Under the pieces are notes generated by a model. That model was not told where the DNA came from. It did no database searches and saw only the letters and a list, made by a program, of their open reading frames with translations. From a virus, in IMG/VR virus record IMGVR_UViG_3300044535_002275, positions 62,001 to 126,000 of that record: a stretch of DNA of 64,000 nucleotides; one strand, written 5' to 3'. The first letter of the stretch is position 1; every line of letters starts with the position of its first letter. Both the position numbers and the translations under genes were made by a program. Positions 20,420 through 30,210 of this stretch are shown one piece after another.

Positions 20420-22471
20420 TTACTTGCTTTGTGCTATAAACACGCCGTTCCAGTCGCCGGGCAGTCGCTGTGTCTTTTGAAACTCGCAGCGTTCAATCCA
20501 CATGGTATAGTAATCAGTCATTCGACCATCAAACTCTGATTTCAGCTGTTCACACATTTCGATTGCTTGATCAAATTTCTGAGCACGATACAGACGGTGC
20601 ATTTCGTCGTGTTCTCTTTGTGATCTAACCTGTCGCAGTGTAGCATCACCAATGGCACTTAACACAGTGTAGATACCAACCCCAACTGACTTGCCTTTCA
20701 CGGCCAAGTCATCTATCTTGAGAAACAAGAACGCATCTCCGCACTGTTTGACTGTGTTCTCTCCAACCAACAGTACACAACCATATTCTTTACACTTGCT
20801 TTCAATGCGAGCTGTAGTACTCACAGCATCACCTAACACATCATAACTGTGTCGTGCAGTTGATCCCATTTCACCTATGTAGCCTAATCCTGTATTGATA
20901 CCAGCACCCATCTTAACACCTGGACGACCTCGAGCTTCTAATTCTCGACTAAACTCTTTGACTGCTTGAACCATTTTGAGTCCCACTGCCACAGCAGTCC
21001 GAGCGTGGTCGGGATCATCAATAGGAGCATTGTGTATGTGCATTGACGCATCGCCGATGTACTTGATGATCATACCGTTGGCTTCTAATACTGGTCGAGT
21101 GATAGCATCCATGTAGCCGTTCATGACTTCTGTCAAGCCTTTAACATCGTCTCCGAAACTTTCTCCTAATGGTGTAAAGCCGCGCAGATCACTGAAGCAG
21201 ATTGATACTTCTTTTTTAACACCCTTCTTGATCAGGTCAGGATTCTCTTGCAGCAGACGAACCACAGTAGGGCTGGCATAACCAGCAAATTGTTTCTTGA
21301 TGGCTTGCTTCTGTAGGAACTCGCTTACAAACTTAACACCATAAGCATGCAGAAGAACAAGACCCAGGCCCACAGCGATAGCAGTACTATCCACGAGCCA
21401 ACTATAAGCAGAAAACAGATATACACTACCACCGATACTGCCAGCAAGCACGACAACAGCAGAAATAATTCCAACATAAACCCACCTTGTTAACATTAAT
21501 AATATGATACTCAACACAACCAGTGCTACAATTTCGGCACCATCTGCCCAGTCAGGTCTTTGAATCGCAACACCGTTTAACAGTGTACCTACTACAGCGG
21601 CCTGTACTGCATGCGGATGAACAGCACCTAGACCGGTTGCCACTGGATTACTGATACCAGCAGCAGTTGGGCCCACAATGACCAAGGCACCATCAAACGA
21701 TTCGGGCAATGCAGTCATGGTGGCCGAATGTGCAGTCTGGCTCCAGTCGATCCATACACGGCCCAGGCTGTCGGTAGCAACAGGGCCAAACTTGGGAATA
21801 CGTATGCGTTCTACTCCTGACTCATTTAGTTTGACTTGGAATGTGGTATCGGATGCAGCCACTCGCATGATTTCAAATGCCAGGCTGGGGTACAAGCGAT
21901 CGCCCACAGCAATCACCAACGGCATGCGTCTATTGACACCGTCTAATTCAGGCAAGGTATGGACAGTGCCTACTCCCCGTGCTGGTCGTTCTAATTCTGG
22001 GATGTTGGCGATCATGCCAGGATATGACACAATGCGATCCAAGTATTGCGATCCAATCACAGCAGATCCAGGTCTACGTGGAGTATTTTTATTTTGTTCT
22101 GCTGGGATGTTGGGCAAGATTACCAGGTGCTTTTGCATTACAGACGACAATGCAGCATCGCCGCCGGCACGATCTGTTTCCGGCATCAGTACATTGAATA
22201 CCACTAGCCCAGCATCACGACGATACAGTTCTTCGATCAACTCAGCATAAACTGTTCTGGGAAAGGGCCATTGGCCATGTTTATTGATTGCAGCTTCGTC
22301 TATGTCCACAGTCCAAATTTCATTAACAGTGGGAGCCTGATTAACAATAAGCGTATCAAAGTATCTCAAGCGAACGCTTTCAACAAATGCAGGATCTGCT
22401 GCACGAATAACCACAATCAAGGCCAAAGTAACAACAGCAGTCCAAGGACTTAGCAAGATCTTTTTTATCAT
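20420..22471 (-). CDS. CHASE2-domain class III adenylate/guanylate cyclase
   Basis: 683 residues from the start at 22471 (MIKKILLSPW), four bases after the upstream stop. N-terminal membrane anchor; periplasmic CHASE2 sensor with the hallmark VDIDEAAINKHGQWPFPR; about three membrane helices near residues 320-400. The class III cyclase domain has FSDLRGFT and KYIGDAS supplying the two metal aspartates, then GINTGLGYIGEMGS. Makes cAMP (or cGMP) from NTP in response to an outside signal. A short helical C-terminal tail follows. Complete and apparently active; very unusual for a phage. Confidence 0.85.
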   Translation of the reverse strand: MIKKILLSPWTAVVTLALIVVIRAADPAFVESVRLRYFDTLIVNQAPTVNEIWTVDIDEAAINKHGQWPFPRTVYAELIEELYRRDAGLVVFNVLMPETDRAGGDAALSSVMQKHLVILPNIPAEQNKNTPRRPGSAVIGSQYLDRIVSYPGMIANIPELERPARGVGTVHTLPELDGVNRRMPLVIAVGDRLYPSLAFEIMRVAASDTTFQVKLNESGVERIRIPKFGPVATDSLGRVWIDWSQTAHSATMTALPESFDGALVIVGPTAAGISNPVATGLGAVHPHAVQAAVVGTLLNGVAIQRPDWADGAEIVALVVLSIILLMLTRWVYVGIISAVVVLAGSIGGSVYLFSAYSWLVDSTAIAVGLGLVLLHAYGVKFVSEFLQKQAIKKQFAGYASPTVVRLLQENPDLIKKGVKKEVSICFSDLRGFTPLGESFGDDVKGLTEVMNGYMDAITRPVLEANGMIIKYIGDASMHIHNAPIDDPDHARTAVAVGLKMVQAVKEFSRELEARGRPGVKMGAGINTGLGYIGEMGSTARHSYDVLGDAVSTTARIESKCKEYGCVLLVGENTVKQCGDAFLFLKIDDLAVKGKSVGVGIYTVLSAIGDATLRQVRSQREHDEMHRLYRAQKFDQAIEMCEQLKSEFDGRMTDYYTMWIERCEFQKTQRLPGDWNGVFIAQSK

Positions 22472-22475
22472 AAGT

Positions 22476-22865
22476 TTATTTTGTAGTAGAGTCGCTGAAC
22501 ACGTACACACGTATTGGTGTACCTGACTTTGCGGCACGAGCACTTCTATGATGCCCGTCTAATATATAAAGCCTGCGGTCTTTTTTGTACACCACAGGTA
22601 AATCTTCATATTCGTCAAACAAGGCTCCGTCACTACCGTAGTTGCTGAGCCAGTCTTGTGTGGCAAACAACTGAGCAGGATTTACTGTAGCTACTTGTGG
22701 TTCGACGCCGGCTGCTATCTGTGCTTCCACCGCGTTGTGTAATAGGCCTGCATCTAGATAATCATCTGCTTTTTCAAATTCAGCAGTGCTAGGATCCAAA
22801 TATTGACCTATACGTAAATTGGTGCGCCATATATTGGGGTCTTGAGTAATTTCTGTTATTCTCAT
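22476..22865 (-). CDS. ParB-like nuclease-fold (DGHHR) protein
   Basis: 129 residues. The C-terminal third has LPVVYKKDRRLYILDGHHR followed by SARAAKSG, the DGHHR signature of ParB/sulfiredoxin-like domains. These often occur in small phage proteins that modify or bind nucleotides or DNA. No separate DNA-binding domain is visible. Precedes the cyclase gene by four bases. Confidence 0.65.
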   Translation of the reverse strand: MRITEITQDPNIWRTNLRIGQYLDPSTAEFEKADDYLDAGLLHNAVEAQIAAGVEPQVATVNPAQLFATQDWLSNYGSDGALFDEYEDLPVVYKKDRRLYILDGHHRSARAAKSGTPIRVYVFSDSTTK

Positions 22866-22959: not shown

Positions 22960-23970
22960 TTATTTTGCGATCTTGGACCAAACTTTATTACGAATTTGGT
23001 CGGTTAGCGTGTCAGGCAGTGCTACATAGTCCAGCTCTGATGCCAAGGCTTTGCCGTTCTTGAATGCCCAGTCAAAAAACTTGATGACTTCTGCTGAAGC
23101 TTTTGGGTCAGCGGGCTTGGCATACACTAGAATAAAACTGGCACCAGCAATGGGCCAGCTCTTAGCACCTGTGGCATCAATAATGCTTATGCCCATGCCT
23201 GGCTTACTGAACCAATCAGCATCGGCTGCTGCTGCGGCAAAGGATTCTTCGTTGGGATTTACATAGTGTCCATCACGATTCTGCAATTGAAGATGTTTGA
23301 TGTTGTTCTTTTTAGCGTAGGCATATTCTACATAACCAATGGCGCCAGCAACTCGTCTCACATTAGCAGCTACACCTTCGTTGCCTTTACCGCCAACTGA
23401 ACTGGCTGCGGGCCATTTGACAGCATTGCCTTTGCCAATCTTGTCTGCCCAGTCCTTGGATACTGTAGCAAGATAGTCGGTAAAGTGGTAAGTAGTGCCC
23501 GAACCGTCAGCACGATGTACCACGGTGATATTTTGATTGGGCAACTGCTTGCCGGGATTCAGTGCTGCTATCTTGGCATCATTCCATTTGAGGATGTTGC
23601 CTTGATAAATTTCAGCCAACACTGCACCAGTTAGTCGCAGTTCGCCTGGCTTGAATCCATCCAAATTGGCTATTGGCACCACACCGCCTAAGATAGCTGG
23701 GAATTGCAACAAGCCCAGCTTGTCCAAAGTGTCACCTGCTACTGGAGCATCTGACGCACCAAAGTTTACTGTTTTGTTGGTGATTTGACGAACACCACCA
23801 GAACTACCAATACTTTGATAATTGAATCTTACGCCGGTTTCTTTGTTGTAAACTTCTGCCCACTTGGCATAGATGGGATAGGGGAATGTTGCACCAGCAC
23901 CTGTGATTTGTTGTGCTGATACTGCAAAACTTGATACTGCTAATAATAGTACAGCTACTATTTTTTTCAT
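22960..23970 (-). CDS. pstS: Phosphate-binding periplasmic protein PstS
   Basis: 336 residues, normal for PstS. Signal peptide MKKIVAVLLLAVSSFAVSAQ. Phosphate-ligand regions are GAGATFPYPIYAKW, YQSIGSSGGVRQI, FGASDAP and HRADGSGTTYHF. Captures phosphate for the host PstCAB transporter; phages carry it to keep phosphate flowing under starvation. No pstC, pstA or pstB here. A Pho-box-like site lies 49 bases upstream. Confidence 0.95.
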   Translation of the reverse strand: MKKIVAVLLLAVSSFAVSAQQITGAGATFPYPIYAKWAEVYNKETGVRFNYQSIGSSGGVRQITNKTVNFGASDAPVAGDTLDKLGLLQFPAILGGVVPIANLDGFKPGELRLTGAVLAEIYQGNILKWNDAKIAALNPGKQLPNQNITVVHRADGSGTTYHFTDYLATVSKDWADKIGKGNAVKWPAASSVGGKGNEGVAANVRRVAGAIGYVEYAYAKKNNIKHLQLQNRDGHYVNPNEESFAAAAADADWFSKPGMGISIIDATGAKSWPIAGASFILVYAKPADPKASAEVIKFFDWAFKNGKALASELDYVALPDTLTDQIRNKVWSKIAK

Positions 23971-24049: not shown

Positions 24050-24337
24050 CTATTTTGTTTTTGTAGTGTGACCAGTTCCTAACCCAATTACACAGACCAT
24101 GTCGGTGTTAAATTGTATAAGAGTCCACCCACCAGTTTTTTCGTCCACCAATAAGGCATAACGACTTGAGACACCTGAGCCAATCCAAAAAGGTCGTTCA
24201 GTAGGGTTGGCTTCGATCAAGGCTCGAAATGCAACTTCGGGTGTTTCGCATATAACTTTTTTGTCTACAGTCACAGGTCCCGATTGGGCCAAACTCAGGG
24301 CAGGCAACAGTAGAATACTAGCCAATAAATGTTTCAT
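24050..24337 (-). CDS. Small exported protein (95 aa)
   Basis: Signal peptide MKHLLASILLLPALSLAQ, then a short mature domain (ICETPEVAFRALIEANP..., WTLIQFNTDMVCVIGLG). Two Cys may pair. GGAG before the ATG. Probably periplasmic; family not recognised. First exported protein after the FecR/curli genes in the leftward order. Confidence 0.65.
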   Translation of the reverse strand: MKHLLASILLLPALSLAQSGPVTVDKKVICETPEVAFRALIEANPTERPFWIGSGVSSRYALLVDEKTGGWTLIQFNTDMVCVIGLGTGHTTKTK

Positions 24338-24411: not shown

Positions 24412-25503
24412 TTATTTTTGTACGATTGTAATTGCAGTGTTACCACCTTGGTTAACTTGTTGTCTAACTTGTACTCCGCCTTGATTTATGTTGATCACAG
24501 CATTGGACTCGGTGCCGACAGTGACTTCGGCAATGTGATCGGTCCTACGATACAAAGTGATCTTGCTTTTGTCATCATTGAAATAGTATCCGATGTTGGT
24601 GGCAGGATTATAATTGGGCAAGATATTTTTTTCAAAGGCACTGCCCAGTGCTGTTTTATTCTGTGCTGATAGTTCGTCTGTTTCGGCCAAGGCCAGGAGA
24701 TCAATGTCTAAATCATTACGATCGATCTCTTTCTTTTCGTCTAGTTCGTTTTTATCCAAGTCCTTGAACGCCAATAAATCCACATCAAGATCGTTTTTAT
24801 CCAACTCAGTCTTGTCCGACCGATACGCAGTTTCTTTAATTTCCACCGGCGGACTTATGATCAACATGTTGTTGATGTTGGCCTGATCGATTGAAATCAC
24901 AGTGGGATTAGATGGAGCAGAGGTCAAACTGTTGACCACAGTGGCTTGATAAGCCACATCCAACAACACACTTCCTGCTTCGTTGGAAACTTCGATAGCA
25001 CCAGTCACACACCCTTTCTTGTCGCAGCTGGGCAATAGCATGACCAAGCTGCGACCCAATTCATCCACCGTCATAGAGAAGTCTGTGCCACGCACTGCTA
25101 CAGTAGCAGTGGGAGTTCGTACGTTGACTGCTTGTGGATTATTTTTAGCAATCTGACCAGACGCATAACGTGCTGTGCCTAGTGCAACTCGCATGGCCAG
25201 CTTGCCTGTTCCTTGCGAAGCGTCGTACACAAAGTCATCTATGACCAGTTTACTTTGCTCAGTTATTTTGACCGTGGTTTTATCTTCGAACGACAAAGTG
25301 ACACGACTCTTGGCAGTGGTCACTGTGTCCTGCATCTCGATTGCGGTGTTGATTGAACTCTCAACACTTTTTTTATTTCTGACAATTTCTGTAGGACCAG
25401 TCTGTTCAGTGACTCGCCCCACAGGAGCTGCAAAATTAGTTGGACTGATTGACAGTAATAGAGTTACTGTTACCAGTTGAAGTAATAGTTGCTTGTTGTA
25501 CAT
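24412..25503 (-). CDS. Exported FecR-domain protein with curlin-like tail
   Basis: 363 residues. Signal peptide at residues 1-25. FecR-like beta domain at about 30-160 (VTLSFEDKTTVKITEQSKL, TPTATVAVRGTDFSM). The middle segment repeats LDKNDLDVDLLAF and IDRNDLDIDLLAL. The C-terminal INQGGVQVRQQVNQGGN resembles curlin units. Secreted FecR-domain proteins of this type are thought to bind glycans or act at the cell surface. The gene begins 68 bases inside the end of the curlin gene in another frame; no later start would keep the signal peptide. Probably part of the curli-type system. Confidence 0.8.
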   Translation of the reverse strand: MYNKQLLLQLVTVTLLLSISPTNFAAPVGRVTEQTGPTEIVRNKKSVESSINTAIEMQDTVTTAKSRVTLSFEDKTTVKITEQSKLVIDDFVYDASQGTGKLAMRVALGTARYASGQIAKNNPQAVNVRTPTATVAVRGTDFSMTVDELGRSLVMLLPSCDKKGCVTGAIEVSNEAGSVLLDVAYQATVVNSLTSAPSNPTVISIDQANINNMLIISPPVEIKETAYRSDKTELDKNDLDVDLLAFKDLDKNELDEKKEIDRNDLDIDLLALAETDELSAQNKTALGSAFEKNILPNYNPATNIGYYFNDDKSKITLYRRTDHIAEVTVGTESNAVININQGGVQVRQQVNQGGNTAITIVQK

Positions 25504-26047
25504 TGGTTCCGCCTTGTGTCAAGCTGATGGTATTGCCACTTAACGCTACTCCGCCAGTGACTGTTATGATTGCTGAGTGCGCACCAGAACCTGACGTGGT
25601 ATGTGTCACTGTGTTCTCATCACCGGTGATCAAGATCTCACTGTACTGAGTAGCAGATGCAACCAAGTTTTGTGTCACTGTGTTGTTGTCACCAGTGACT
25701 TGTTGCTTGATGAAACTGCTGCCGCATGTGGCACTGTTGGCAGTACCGCAATTGATCACCTGTGTGTTGTTGCTGCCGTTGGTGGTCACAGTTGCAGTAA
25801 TTGCAGCGCCGTTGATGATCATGTCCAAGGCATTCGAGCTACCAATTTGATCAATGGTTACTATATTGGCATCGCCTTTGATTATGGAAGGTGTGCCGTC
25901 AGCGCCTATCCTGTTGCTGTTGCCATCCTGTAGTATGGTGATAGCAGCACCATCACCTACCTGTTCTATATAAACATCATTTGCTTGAGCTGTAGGCACC
26001 CAAGCCAGGGCAGCGATTACTGCCATTATTCCAAAACGTTTAAGCAT
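25436..26047 (-). CDS. Curlin-like amyloid subunit
   Basis: 203 residues. Signal peptide ending TAQA. The mature protein is Asn/Thr/Gly/Ser-rich with recurring QxGxxNxxxxxQ-like units (ILQDGNSNRIG, IDQIGSSNALD, QQVTGDNNTVTQN, LTQGGTNVQQATI), the pattern of curlin repeats that stack into fibres outside the cell. AAGGAG upstream. CsgG and CsgF are encoded immediately upstream in the same leftward operon. Confidence 0.8.
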   Translation of the reverse strand: MLKRFGIMAVIAALAWVPTAQANDVYIEQVGDGAAITILQDGNSNRIGADGTPSIIKGDANIVTIDQIGSSNALDMIINGAAITATVTTNGSNNTQVINCGTANSATCGSSFIKQQVTGDNNTVTQNLVASATQYSEILITGDENTVTHTTSGSGAHSAIITVTGGVALSGNTISLTQGGTNVQQATITSTGNSNSITVNQSN

Positions 26048-26066
26048 TTTTTGCTCCTTTTTATTA

Positions 26067-26837
26067 TTATTTTTTGAACCGCCATAAACCTGAACGTTCT
26101 CCGCTCATGATCATTTCATACACAGCCTGCTCAATTGCCACACGTACTGCATAAGTTGTGGGCTCATTCAAGGTTGCACCGTTTTCTAATTCTATGCTTT
26201 TAGTAGCAGAGTCAAAGAATTTAAGTGCGCCCAGAGTATGAGCTGTACTGTATATTGTTTTGGAGATACTGTTGCTGATCAACACTTCTCCTGAGTTGAC
26301 TGATATCAGTCTAATGCTGACTACCACTTCGTCAACTCGATACTGTTGGCTTCCGCCGATGCCTAGTATTCTAGCACCGCTTCCGCCTGTTCTGATGTTG
26401 CTGTCATAACCAATGATGCCACCTTCTATTATGAGTCCAGCCACTATCATGGGCTTGAGAGGTTTGGCATCCTTGCCTTCGTAAATTTCTCGCTGATTAC
26501 GTATCAGCTGACGTTCCTTGATCAAGTTGTCCAGGCCCACACGCTCGACCACACGGAACCAACCCGGCACATCCTTTAGGCTCTTGATCAAGAACACTTC
26601 AGCCCCTTGTGTCACTGCTTTGCTGAACACAGCCAACTTATCGTTGGGTTTCAGCTGTCCTGTCTTGTCAGCAAATCCGTACACTGCCACAGTGACAACA
26701 GGACCATCGAGAGGAGGAATCTTTTCAATGAGATTCACTCGTGGTTTGATCTCCACGGGTTCCTCGCGAGCTGCGCTCATGTGAATCTGAGCACACCCGC
26801 CGACTAAAGCAAGTAGTAAAACGGCTAGGATACGCAT
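26067..26837 (-). CDS. csgG: Curli secretion pore lipoprotein CsgG
   Basis: 256 residues. Signal sequence with lipobox LVGGCAQ. CsgG features: VTVAVYGFADKTGQLKPND, GWFRVVERVGLDNLIKERQ, GLIIEGGIIGYDSN and the conserved YRVDEVVVSIRLI...GEVL. CsgG forms the outer-membrane nonamer that exports curlin. The start at ATG 26837 follows the csgF stop by one base; a TTG alternative lies four codons upstream. Confidence 0.9.
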   Translation of the reverse strand: MRILAVLLLALVGGCAQIHMSAAREEPVEIKPRVNLIEKIPPLDGPVVTVAVYGFADKTGQLKPNDKLAVFSKAVTQGAEVFLIKSLKDVPGWFRVVERVGLDNLIKERQLIRNQREIYEGKDAKPLKPMIVAGLIIEGGIIGYDSNIRTGGSGARILGIGGSQQYRVDEVVVSIRLISVNSGEVLISNSISKTIYSTAHTLGALKFFDSATKSIELENGATLNEPTTYAVRVAIEQAVYEMIMSGERSGLWRFKK

Positions 26838-26838
26838 G

Positions 26839-27288
26839 TTAAAACGCAAAGCTCGCTATTGGTACAACAACTTCAGTTCTATTACCTGTGGTATCTAGTA
26901 TGGTTAGAGTCACCGTGCTGCCATTCTTGAGCCACGTGATGCTGCTGCCTTGAAAGTCCAAGGTGCCGGTGTTCTTGTCTGACTCACCGAACATGTTGTC
27001 GGCCAACTGTTTGCTCAACTGCGCATAGATTCTTGATTCCAAGTTTACAATAAACTTGGCCAAGGTGGTGTTCTTGGCATCACGCTCGGCCTTGTCTCGG
27101 GCTGCTTGTTCAGCATCGTTAATTTTTTGTCGACGTTGTGTTTCTAATTGTTCTATGGTCAACACATGTGCCGAATAGCCCTGGCCACTAAAGGCAGGGC
27201 TAGAAAATTGGTGCACCAATTCGCTGGCCTGTGTACTGCCGCCTACGACCGATAGTGCCAGCATGATTGCTGTCAACCCGGTTCTCAT
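26839..27288 (-). CDS. csgF: Curli assembly factor CsgF
   Basis: 149 residues. Signal peptide MRTGLTAIMLALSVVGGSTQA, then the CsgF head ELVHQFSSPAFSG, which inserts into the CsgG pore. A helical linker rich in Gln/Lys/Ala and a C-terminal beta domain follow (LDFQGSSITWLKNGSTVTL). CsgF couples secretion to fibre nucleation. AGGAG upstream. No csgE homologue is seen nearby. Confidence 0.85.
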   Translation of the reverse strand: MRTGLTAIMLALSVVGGSTQASELVHQFSSPAFSGQGYSAHVLTIEQLETQRRQKINDAEQAARDKAERDAKNTTLAKFIVNLESRIYAQLSKQLADNMFGESDKNTGTLDFQGSSITWLKNGSTVTLTILDTTGNRTEVVVPIASFAF

Positions 27289-27361
27289 TGTAAACGCTCC
27301 TGTTATTTTTTACCTGCTTTATATTTAATCATACCGCGAAATTAGTTATGTACACACAAAG

Positions 27362-27386
27362 AAAAATCCTGCCGAGGCAGGATTTT
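27362..27386 (-). terminator. Rho-independent terminator after the OmpA-like gene
   Basis: Leftward AATCCTGCC/GGCAGGATT stem followed by TTTCTTT. Confidence 0.8.
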
Positions 27387-27409
27387 CTTGTACGCTAAAG
27401 AGTGTACGC

Positions 27410-27958
27410 TTACTTGATTGCAGTGATGACCACTCGTCGGTCGGGTGCCAGGCATGACTTGAGGCGTTCAAAGTTTTTCATTCCAGTACAAAGTTTTGTA
27501 CCTTCGGTTGGTTGTGTTGCTCCAACTCCTTGAGTGACAAACTTGCTCTTGAATCCCGACTTGGCATTCAGATAATCGCCTACCGCACCTGCACGTTGCT
27601 GACTCAATCGAAGATTGTAAGCAGCAGTGCCAATACGATCAGTGTGACCAACCACGGTCACTGTAGAACCTGGAGCAATGGTTGCAGCCAACTGATCCAG
27701 TGCTGCACGACCTACTGATGTAAGTGCTGCTGAATCAAATTCAAACAACACATCACCATTGATAGTGACAGGCGCACGTTCTGCAACAGGATCACATGCC
27801 TTGACTGCGTCAGCAGCGGTATAAGTTCCGGTATGCAAGCAAAGGCCTGAACCTGTACGAACAATCTGACCTGATCCATCTGTTACATATCCTGGAGTGC
27901 CTTGAGCAATGGCCAGGAATGCAACAGCGGATAACATGACGGCTAATAATGCTTTCAT
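27410..27958 (-). CDS. OmpA-like peptidoglycan-binding protein
   Basis: 182 residues. Signal peptide ending AIAQ. A short N-terminal segment of the type seen in Burkholderiales OmpA proteins (VTDGSGQIVRTGSGLC) precedes an OmpA_C domain (VTVVGHTDRIGTAAYNLRLS with the peptidoglycan-binding Asp and Arg). No beta-barrel domain. It would sit in the periplasm attached to the wall. AAAGGA upstream. Likely host-derived. Confidence 0.85.
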   Translation of the reverse strand: MKALLAVMLSAVAFLAIAQGTPGYVTDGSGQIVRTGSGLCLHTGTYTAADAVKACDPVAERAPVTINGDVLFEFDSAALTSVGRAALDQLAATIAPGSTVTVVGHTDRIGTAAYNLRLSQQRAGAVGDYLNAKSGFKSKFVTQGVGATQPTEGTKLCTGMKNFERLKSCLAPDRRVVITAIK

Positions 27959-27972
27959 TGTTATCCTTTAGA

Positions 27973-29145
27973 TTAGAACTGGTGACGCAAGCCAACACCG
28001 ACCACAGTGCTCTTGGCAGTGTCAACAGTGGCCAGGTTATCCATGTAACTCACGTAAGCATACGCATTGGTGCGCTTGGTGAAATCATATGTATAGCCCA
28101 GGTTGTAAGCTGACTGATTCTGTGCATTGTAAACATCTTTCATGTTGGTGTTGGGAGTCAACAAGGTCCAGCTGACCATAACACGGCTTGCGGCATTGAC
28201 GGGGACAGTAGCACCCAGCAGGTAGCTGTTGTAACCCATGTTCTGATCAAAGATCACTTCGCCATTGGCATTGGCCGGATTACCGTTTAAATTAATACCA
28301 GCACCTGTAGCGCCATTGCCCTGACCCAGGATGTAACCACCGCGTGTTTGGCCGTACGCTGCTGACAATTTGGCAACCTTAAGATCATACGCTCCGCCCA
28401 GGTTCCATGAACTGGGATTGCTGGCACTGATAGAACTGGTAGGTGCATAAATCTTGTCATATGACAAGGCAGTATAAACTGGACCATTGGTGTAGTTGGC
28501 ACCTAATGACAACTGACGCACGTTGTTGTTGGTTTCAAAGTTGTAGCCAGTAGAACCTACTCTTGAAACTCTTGCAGCAGCACCATCAATAGCTGTGTTG
28601 CTCATGCCATTGGCAAATGAGTAAGCAGCACCTGCACGGAATCCTGACATCAAAGGTGACTGGTACTTGATGGCATTGCTCATACGCAAAGTATTAGCTG
28701 CACCAAATGCTGCACCAATGTTGGCTTGTCCGAAGCCTTGACTAAACGGATCAATTGCGCCGAAATAGTCAGAGGCTAAGTTGTATTGACGGCCGATACG
28801 AGCCAAGCCCCAGGCGTTGTTTTCCACACCCAGATAAGCCTGACGACCAAACAGCCGGTTGGATTGACCACTAGTGCCATTTCCTAATTCAAATCCGCTT
28901 TCTAAAACAAAAGTAACGCGGTTACCGTTGCCAATGTCTTCAACACCACGCAGACCAAAACGGTTGCCACTTTGTACGCCATATGCAGCACCAAAGTTTG
29001 ATGCAGACGCATCTTGCAAACTCACTGTTTGATAACGAATTCCAGCATCTAGAATACCGTACAGTGTAACAGATGATTGAGCTGTAGCTGCAAAGCTCAG
29101 GCCCATTGCGGCCGTTAGTACTGCTAGTTTATGAGTAACTTTCAT
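27973..29145 (-). CDS. Betaproteobacterial general porin (trimeric 16-strand type)
   Basis: 390 residues. Signal peptide MKVTHKLAVLTAAMGLSFAA; mature start QSSVTLYGILDAGIRYQ, the hallmark of Burkholderiales/Neisseria-type porins. Many alternating beta strands and the C-terminal phenylalanine (RHQF) needed for outer-membrane insertion. Full length. AAGGAG and a good promoter upstream. A phage-borne porin could change uptake or replace the receptor; this is inference. Confidence 0.92.
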   Translation of the reverse strand: MKVTHKLAVLTAAMGLSFAATAQSSVTLYGILDAGIRYQTVSLQDASASNFGAAYGVQSGNRFGLRGVEDIGNGNRVTFVLESGFELGNGTSGQSNRLFGRQAYLGVENNAWGLARIGRQYNLASDYFGAIDPFSQGFGQANIGAAFGAANTLRMSNAIKYQSPLMSGFRAGAAYSFANGMSNTAIDGAAARVSRVGSTGYNFETNNNVRQLSLGANYTNGPVYTALSYDKIYAPTSSISASNPSSWNLGGAYDLKVAKLSAAYGQTRGGYILGQGNGATGAGINLNGNPANANGEVIFDQNMGYNSYLLGATVPVNAASRVMVSWTLLTPNTNMKDVYNAQNQSAYNLGYTYDFTKRTNAYAYVSYMDNLATVDTAKSTVVGVGLRHQF

Positions 29146-29196: not shown

Positions 29197-29225
29197 ATTA
29201 TATAGCGAATTGTGCAACGTGTCAA
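29197..29225 (-). promoter_or_regulatory. Sigma70 promoter for the porin gene
   Basis: TTGACA at 29220-29225, 17-base spacer, TATAAT at 29197-29202. Confidence 0.8.
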
Positions 29226-29287: not shown

Positions 29288-29683
29288 TCAGATCGAATAC
29301 GTATTGCCTTTGCTCATATTTTCCTTAGCTGGCAAATATTGCAGATTTTCTAAGACATGGAATCCGCTTACTAATTTTCCTCTTAGCGGGATTATATGGT
29401 CGACATGGTATCCTTCGGGACAATTTAGATAGAAGTTTTTAATCGCTTGCTTATCTGCCCAAGCCGGCATTCTTTGCAATCTAACTGCTCGTTCAGTTGC
29501 ACTTTTTAATCTAACTTTATCTCTATTATTTTTTTGCCACCGTCTGTATCGTTCTGACTGAGTTTTGGCATTAGACCGACGTTGAGCTTCTTGTTTACCG
29601 GGCTTGTTTAAATATTTTTGTTGGTAAGCTTTAAAACGTTCTTTTCGTTCTTCTTCGGTTTCTATTATTTTTTTGCGTCCCAT
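29288..29683 (-). CDS. HNH endonuclease
   Basis: 131 residues from ATG 29683 (MGRKKIIETEEERKERF). Basic N-terminal region, then the HNH core YHVDHIIPLRG and GFHVLENLQYLPAKEN. Free-standing HNH genes in phages are often homing endonucleases. It sits alone between two terminators, between the tmRNA and the porin, as a recent insertion would. Confidence 0.85.
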   Translation of the reverse strand: MGRKKIIETEEERKERFKAYQQKYLNKPGKQEAQRRSNAKTQSERYRRWQKNNRDKVRLKSATERAVRLQRMPAWADKQAIKNFYLNCPEGYHVDHIIPLRGKLVSGFHVLENLQYLPAKENMSKGNTYSI

Positions 29684-29714
29684 GATATTATTTATCATCG
29701 TTTGCTAAAAGAAA

Positions 29715-29732
29715 AGCCCGCCGAAGCGGGCT
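29715..29732 (-). terminator. Rho-independent terminator after the tmRNA
   Basis: AGCCCGC-TTCG-GCGGGCT hairpin followed by TTTTCTTTT leftward. Confidence 0.9.
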
Positions 29733-29735
29733 ACT

Positions 29736-30048
29736 ATTTTCTGTTTCGAAGGATAGTTCCTCAATAACGGCTTAAGCGGCCGCTAAAAATAACTCATCAT
29801 TAGCTGCGGTTATTTGGTTGTTTACTTTTAACGACTATCTGTGTCGAGTTGTCCATGCCGTTACTTGTTGCCCAATCGAAACCTGGTCAGCCCCATCAGA
29901 AGCATACTATGGTGAAATAGACTTACAATGTAGAGGTCTTGGCTTACCATTCCTGATCTTTTTACAGATTTTAATATGCTTATGGTGGAGCTGGAGGGAA
30001 TCGAACCCTCGTCTTGAACACTTTTCTCTTTACTTCATACAACAATTC
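29736..30048 (-). ncRNA. ssrA: Circularly permuted (two-piece) tmRNA
   Basis: Read leftward, the acceptor piece comes first: T-arm GAGGGTTCGATTCCCTC and 3' end CCAGCTCCACCA (3' A at 29983). An 88-base intervening segment follows. Then the coding piece starts at 29894 with GGGGCTGACCAGGTTTCGAT, the classic tmRNA 5' end. GGGGCTG pairs with CAGCTCC to rebuild the acceptor stem. The tag frame (29772-29807) reads GCA then ANDELFLAAA-stop. This 3'-before-5' order is the permuted form, processed to two RNAs. tmRNA rescues stalled ribosomes and tags the product. Outer ends are approximate. Confidence 0.92.
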
Positions 30049-30054
30049 TTAAAA

Positions 30055-30210
30055 TCAATCCGGCTGTTTACGAGCATTGAGTTTATCAGATGCATAGGTA
30101 ACCAGCACCCATGGTAGTACAGCATGAATTACTAATGCACCTGCTATCTTTAACGCAAAAAATAAATGCTTGAAATATCCCACGTTGTTTTCTTTCAGAT
30201 GATCAATCAC
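30055..30210 (-). CDS. Small membrane protein (51 aa, DUF6356-like)
   Basis: GTG start with AGGGG upstream; a second GTG three bases earlier is possible. The product has GYFKHLFFALKIAGALVIHA, one membrane helix, then LPWVLVTYASDKLNARK. The (Y/F)F.H...A...AG...HA.LP....YASDK pattern is that of a small uncharacterised membrane family (DUF6356-like, from memory). Its stop lies just before the tmRNA acceptor piece, so they may share a transcript. Confidence 0.6.
   Translation of the reverse strand: MIDHLKENNVGYFKHLFFALKIAGALVIHAVLPWVLVTYASDKLNARKQPD

Follow-up and report, generated by a model that had tools for sequence, protein, structure and literature searches.

The 64,000-nucleotide stretch of DNA considered here (the window; bases 62001-126000 of the IMG/VR viral record IMGVR_UViG_3300044535_002275, 159,510 bases in all) carries a leftward operon, at 27288-24412, encoding CsgF, CsgG, a curlin-repeat protein, and a FecR-domain protein. 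Judged by these genes, the operon is a type VIII (curli) secretion module and not a bare pore; the system is a further branch of a known kind of phage curli system and is not new in kind. The use that we consider probable, though far from assured, is a curli-type coat formed on the infected cell late in infection and without CsgE; the FecR protein would be its partner in the envelope, and a nucleotide cyclase the sensor.

Curli modules have been known in phages since 2020, when a csgGF cluster was reported in pelagimyophages (Zaragoza-Solas et al., 2020; PMC7029224). A pinholin or secretin role has been proposed for the module of phage Melnitz (Buchholz et al., 2022; PMC9004378); a fuller module with CsgA/B, FecR, and a cyclase, and without CsgE, was described from uncultivated pelagiphages, for which ideas of aggregation, superinfection, and import were raised (mSystems, 2022; PMC9599517). 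The published ideas partly treat the missing CsgE, the missing CsgA/B, and the "FecR regulator" as odd. The absence of csgA and csgB stated by the Melnitz authors is contradicted by curlin-repeat genes in the Melnitz record's own annotation, and had already been revised for related phages (PMC9599517). By the comparisons below, the module is whole by the standard of its own lineage, is kept by selection, and is probably expressed late; the uses left to consider are then those of surface fibres around the release of progeny, and these can be tested with the existing isolates HTVC008M and Melnitz or by expression in E. coli.

Genes of the curli operon

All four protein families score above cut-off (Table 1), and the genes are spaced as in an operon: csgF and csgG overlap by 11 nucleotides (nt), csgG and the curlin gene are separated by 19 nt, and the curlin and FecR genes overlap by 68 nt. 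The N-termini of all four proteins read as signal-peptide-like or as a lipobox. The initial annotation had described such a cluster in one leftward operon, with signal peptides, a CsgG lipobox, the CsgF head, and curlin repeats; each of these features is present, and the profiles for CsgF (PF10614), CsgG (PF03783), curlin (PF07012), and FecR (PF04773) all match.

CsgG, whose gene has its probable ATG start at 26837, aligns nearly end to end with the solved E. coli CsgG in the Protein Data Bank (PDB; E=4.5e-43), and the cysteine (C19) of its lipobox, LVGGC, is invariant among 18 phage sequences. The CsgF head of the window reads QFxSPAFxGxGYSxHVLTIEQ; among 83 phage homologues, F28, P31, F33, G35, G37, S39, and H41 are each at least 95% conserved. 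The AlphaFold2 (AF2) model of the curlin protein is a beta-solenoid, with a mean local confidence (pLDDT) of 87 and a predicted template-modelling score (pTM) of 0.82; a Foldseek search of this model against the PDB returned nothing at E<=0.001, only weak scores to other beta-rich or beta-solenoid proteins, and is uninformative on curli. Many phage CsgG proteins, among them those of the related loci L007, L008, L010, L017, L018, L073, and L075, are 340-415 amino acids (aa) long with a C-terminal extension; several of them end in an SH3-like sequence of the GRKGYVKxxxL type. The CsgG of the window has no extension.

Absence of CsgE

The CsgE gate is found in gamma- and betaproteobacterial systems and is not a defining component of the whole curli class. 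A hidden Markov model search with the CsgE family (PF10627) gave no match anywhere in the 159,510-base record, bearing out the absence noted in the initial annotation, and none in 49 related phage records (0/49), while the E. coli control gave a match. In 398 Pseudomonadota genomes, CsgG was found at E<=1e-15 in 38; Of 39 genomes with CsgG that were searched for CsgE (36 of these 38, and three that came from other loci), 27 have it. CsgE was absent from all nine bacterial genomes whose CsgG scores best against the phage profile (E<=1.4e-79), and csgE is lacking in Alphaproteobacteria as a class, according to the curli survey by Dueholm et al. (PMC3521004).

By these comparisons the lack of CsgE is the normal state for the branch to which the phage module belongs. 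Because its absence is ordinary in related phages and bacteria, the missing CsgE is no sign of a special pore, and the suggestion in the initial annotation that CsgG, left ungated by the lack of CsgE, may be a pore that serves release, uptake, or lysis finds no support: the 49 phage records and the nine best-scoring bacteria are also without CsgE.

Conservation and descent of the module

A scan of viral contigs gave at least 593 CsgG relatives, of which the best 80 were examined; having been picked for their likeness to the query, these are biased to close kin. Once duplicates and loci with short flanks had been removed, CsgG was accompanied by CsgF at 65 of 65 loci, by curlin at 56 of 56, by FecR at 56 of 56, and by the cyclase at 40 of 41 (on the opposite strand in five). 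A pore alone needs no curlin or FecR genes, so the presence of both at all 56 loci disfavours the bare-pore reading. For the five module genes, the ratio of nonsynonymous to synonymous substitution rates (dN/dS) lies at ~0.02-0.2 in near-neighbour pairs with estimable dS, several comparisons being synonymously saturated; by this measure, the module genes are kept by purifying selection in the sampled pairs.

A midpoint-rooted CsgG tree (120 rows, some branches long) places all phage sequences in one clade (support 100/99) apart from the bacterial rows. Within this clade also fall eight contigs that look like phage but come from bacterial assembly bins. These contigs (L084-L090 and L095, from Rhodobacteraceae, Pirellulales, Flavobacteriaceae, and Pelagibacter bins) carry the phage-type module and are probably mis-binned phage contigs; a scan of bacterial genome contigs with narrow patterns returned 15 loci only, about half of them phage-like contigs in bacterial assemblies. 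On current sampling, the module has been passed on as a whole within a single viral lineage and goes back to one origin within viruses; the phage records that bear it reach 364 kb.

Profiles for FecR and the cyclase had no match in 33 stretches (~11-19 kb) around bacterial csgG genes, and a CHASE2-type enzyme lies within ~3 kb of small bacterial FecR genes at 4 of 7 loci. Because these csgG stretches gave no FecR or cyclase match, while some small bacterial FecR genes neighbour CHASE2 enzymes, the phage module has the appearance of two modules of bacteria brought together.

The FecR protein and the cyclase

In its AF2 model the FecR protein consists of a signal peptide (~residues 1-25), a FecR fold, a linker modelled with low confidence, and, at the C-terminus, a beta domain; residues 56-215 match the FecR domain of PupR (Z 15.1). 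Beta structure follows directly after the signal peptide, and the protein has no cytoplasmic N-terminal anti-sigma domain ahead of a membrane helix. Since the cytoplasmic anti-sigma part is absent, the protein is better read as an envelope partner than as an iron regulator, and the label "iron-dependent regulator" given to it (PMC9599517) is probably misleading. The FecR alignment profile had no credible match among PDB sequences; a comparison of residues 25-119 with the "cell surface anchoring domain" of 5ix9 (VIA-align) gave Z 7.6, too low for a shared fold to be trusted.

In an alignment of the C-terminal tail from 20 phages Q40, N50, and Q61 are invariant, and the tail pattern QxG...ITIxQ resembles the end of the curlin protein. 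None of the bacterial FecR matches listed for the 398 genomes extends into this C-terminal domain, the furthest ending at profile position 282 of 362. In bacteria, the proteins that match the phage FecR domain best (L135-L164) are either small, of ~150-190 aa, or very large, with open frames that run from 1,000 to almost 10,000 aa.

The cyclase gene lies 2 kb downstream of the operon. Its probable start is the ATG at 22471, the open reading frame (ORF) from the GTG at 22543 being too long by sequence and by the starts of homologues; residues D452, K494, and D498 are invariant in 56 phages.

Phage type and timing of expression

The viral record encodes a T4-type portal, baseplate wedge, and DNA polymerase and a gp55-like late sigma factor, and by these genes it is a T4-like phage; the completeness of the 159,510-base record is not stated, and part of the genome could be lacking. 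The host is probably a betaproteobacterium, because the transfer-messenger RNA (tmRNA) is of the beta type and the relatives of a porin encoded upstream of the operon are mainly from Burkholderiales.

The T4 late promoter, TATAAATA, has TAAATA as its core. Of 70 phages, 52 carry this core in the 70 nt ahead of csgF, where shuffles predict 6.6, and 27 of 54 carry it before the cyclase gene (4.8 expected); none was found upstream of csgG (0/70) or of the curlin gene (0/67). The exact TATAAATA stands directly before csgF in HTVC008M. This exact box shows no enrichment in the window; enrichment upstream of genes is seen for the shorter TAAATA. In the genome of the window TAAATA also precedes genes for a baseplate wedge, a virion protein, and a large peptidase-domain protein. 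The porin gene, by contrast, stands behind a perfect sigma-70 consensus, and a hairpin resembling a terminator separates ompA from csgF. The late-type motif before csgF, together with the gp55-like sigma factor, suggests that the curli unit is expressed late; such timing favours a benefit around progeny release over early superinfection exclusion.

Proposed function and alternatives

In the coat reading, an amyloid coat on infected cells having been one of the options raised in the initial annotation, a T4-type late promoter would drive the operon. Curlin would cross the inner membrane by Sec and then pass the CsgG-CsgF pore without CsgE, as is presumed for CsgE-less alphaproteobacterial systems, and, once outside, would polymerise on the surface of the infected cell into an amyloid-like layer. 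As envelope partner of curlin, the FecR protein would be either a fibre cap or anchor or a periplasmic adaptor; the periplasmic CHASE2 domain of the cyclase may sense the FecR protein, or how export is proceeding, and the enzyme would then make a cyclic nucleotide. The benefit would fall at progeny release, with sibling or nearby host cells held together around lysis; alternatively, receptors on the dying cell and its debris would be masked and progeny not wasted on them.

Several points weigh against this reading. Cultures infected with the related phage Melnitz showed no clumping (PMC9004378). Late expression is suggested by a motif statistic and not by a mapped promoter or transcript; genome-wide, 25 of 151 upstream regions contain TAAATA where 10 would be expected, and among the genes that it precedes in this genome several have no known function. 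A phage receptor for cyclic AMP (PF00027) was sought and not found, so any cyclic-nucleotide signal would need host proteins. The tail of the FecR protein has no match to PF07012; its comparison with curlin by hhalign (a single comparison) gave a probability of 19% and E=0.0012, and per-genome shuffles gave a median z of ~1.2, with 3.2 for the window itself. The "curlin-like tail" is accordingly a lead: of the FecR-curlin hybrid proposed in the initial annotation, the conserved C-terminal beta domain with curlin-like signature residues stands, while homology to curlin is weak.

A speculative extension of the coat, and a doubtful one, is an amyloid-export feedback circuit, in which the FecR tail would bind curlin and report export to the CHASE2 cyclase, whose messenger would tune the host late. 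The circuit, if real, would couple in a virus two systems of bacteria for which no linkage was found in the bacteria sampled.

Pinholins act in the inner membrane, whereas the CsgG lipobox points to the outer membrane. This is one of several reasons to regard as unlikely that CsgG, with or without CsgF, has taken on a new role as an outer-membrane pore, ungated or like a pinholin or secretin, for lysis timing or uptake, with the other genes as accessories. The proposal is that of the Melnitz authors (PMC9004378), CsgE is indeed absent from phage records, and late expression would suit lysis too; but related bacteria are ordinarily without CsgE (PMC3521004), curlin and FecR are never missing and are selectively kept where tested, and the CsgF head, which binds the CsgG barrel in E. 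coli, is conserved.

Early superinfection exclusion, an idea voiced for the related module (PMC9599517), would have the fibre layer mask receptors against competing phages. The surface position of the system, its porin and OmpA-like neighbours, and the autotransporters of related phages agree with it; exclusion is, however, expected early, whereas the csgF unit has a late-type motif, and we hold this use to be improbable. Still less credence attaches to a nutrient module, in which pore, porin, and PstS would raise the uptake of phosphate, iron, or a cofactor by the infected cell: PstS and porin adjoin the cluster in the window, and a perfect sigma-70 promoter precedes the porin gene, but these neighbours are not conserved: few of the 80 loci match the PstS and porin profiles, whereas curlin and FecR are never missing. 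A selfish or neutral passenger captured from the host is scarcely credible, for although homologous bacterial operons exist, the single phage clade with its deep branches and the low dN/dS speak against it, and purifying selection on the module genes contradicts it.

Neighbouring genes and related loci

The coordinates of the operon and of its surroundings are collected in Table 1. The initial annotation made no mention of the flanking cyclase, PstS, OmpA-like protein, porin, ParB-like ORF, and small exported protein.

Table 1. Features of the curli locus and its flanks; positions are those of the window.
Feature	Position	Strand	Evidence or remark
CHASE2-domain class III nucleotide cyclase	20420..22471	-	PF05226 E=7.9e-37, PF00211 E=3.2e-17
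PstS phosphate-binding protein	22960..23970	-	NCBIfam PRK10918 E=1e-121
Small exported protein	24050..24337	-	Profile matches in about a dozen other phage loci
FecR-domain protein	24412..25503	-	PF04773 E=2.3e-12; conserved family
Curlin-like tail of FecR protein (residues 300-363)	24415..24606	-	pLDDT 78-88, beta strands
Curlin-repeat protein (CsgA/B-like), exported	25436..26047	-	PF07012 E=1.7e-6, three stretches
csgG, outer-membrane lipoprotein pore	26067..26849	-	PF03783 E=4.8e-51
csgF	26839..27288	-	PF10614 E=1.9e-18; signal peptide, CsgF head, C-terminal domain
TAAATA, T4-type late-promoter-like motif	27322..27327	-	39 nt upstream of csgF start
Terminator-like hairpin	27362..27387	-	11-pair stem, simple consensus scan; separates porin/ompA from csgF
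OmpA-like protein	27410..27958	-	PF00691 E=6e-18
Burkholderiales-type porin	27973..29145	-	PF13609 E=7.7e-44
Perfect sigma-70 promoter consensus before porin	29197..29225	-	5 such sites in window vs 0.04 expected

The ParB-like ORF also lies downstream of the operon, between the FecR and cyclase genes. The small exported protein, which has two conserved cysteines and no Pfam or PHROG match, is often found in this same interval in other phages. The porin has plasmid relatives mostly in Burkholderia, Paraburkholderia, and Cupriavidus; as a query it found only two related loci among viral contigs (one on L006) and one weak match among phage records. The tmRNA (29681-30075, minus strand) is of the betaproteobacterial, permuted type, is matched by both RF01850 and RF04321, and has the tag AANDELFLAAA; adjoining it, 27 tRNA genes are clustered at 32.4-43.8 kb.

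Related phages have large signal-peptide ORFs inside their curli loci (L008:11915-14476 and L010:12116-14164, with similar ORFs in L011, L013, L014, L017-L021, L036, L042, L043, and L073). Large proteins (660-1445 aa) in related phages that were flagged by a loose curlin pattern are not curlin; among five large proteins scanned, the autotransporter beta-domain (PF03797) is matched by two, and the other three match nothing in Pfam. A phage-borne autotransporter beside a curli system seems unusual.

Comparison with known systems

The csgBAC/csgDEFG system of E. coli is like that of the window in CsgG over its length and in the CsgF family; the window differs in the lack of CsgE, in gene order, and in a divergent C-terminal part of CsgF, for which there was no PDB sequence match. 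The CsgE-less curli operons of bacteria, chiefly Alphaproteobacteria (Cognatishimia, Oricola), share CsgG and mostly CsgF and curlin, but their gene order is different, no FecR or CHASE2-cyclase was found in the stretches examined around csgG, and the phage CsgG forms a separate clade. In Burkholderia contaminans, an operon for a FecR-LysM protein and a CHASE2 kinase regulates biofilm (PMC5192318); it shares with the phage module the pairing of an exported FecR protein with a CHASE2 sensor enzyme, but the effector is a histidine kinase and not a cyclase, and no curli genes are described for it (PMC5192318).

The closest likeness is to the module of pelagiphages and OM43 phages (HTVC008M, Melnitz), in the order CsgF-CsgG-curlin-FecR-(second curlin)-cyclase, the absence of CsgE, the T4-like background, and membership of one CsgG clade. 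The window differs from that module in a CsgG only 48-52% identical, in the lack of the second curlin, in PstS, the ParB-like ORF, and the small exported protein between FecR and cyclase, in the porin and OmpA-like genes upstream, and in a host that is probably betaproteobacterial. What the present analysis adds to the known kind is breadth (a betaproteobacterial-type phage, and contigs of up to 364 kb), the comparison of CsgE across phages and bacteria, the late-motif statistic, the re-reading of the FecR protein, and the neighbourhood of envelope genes.

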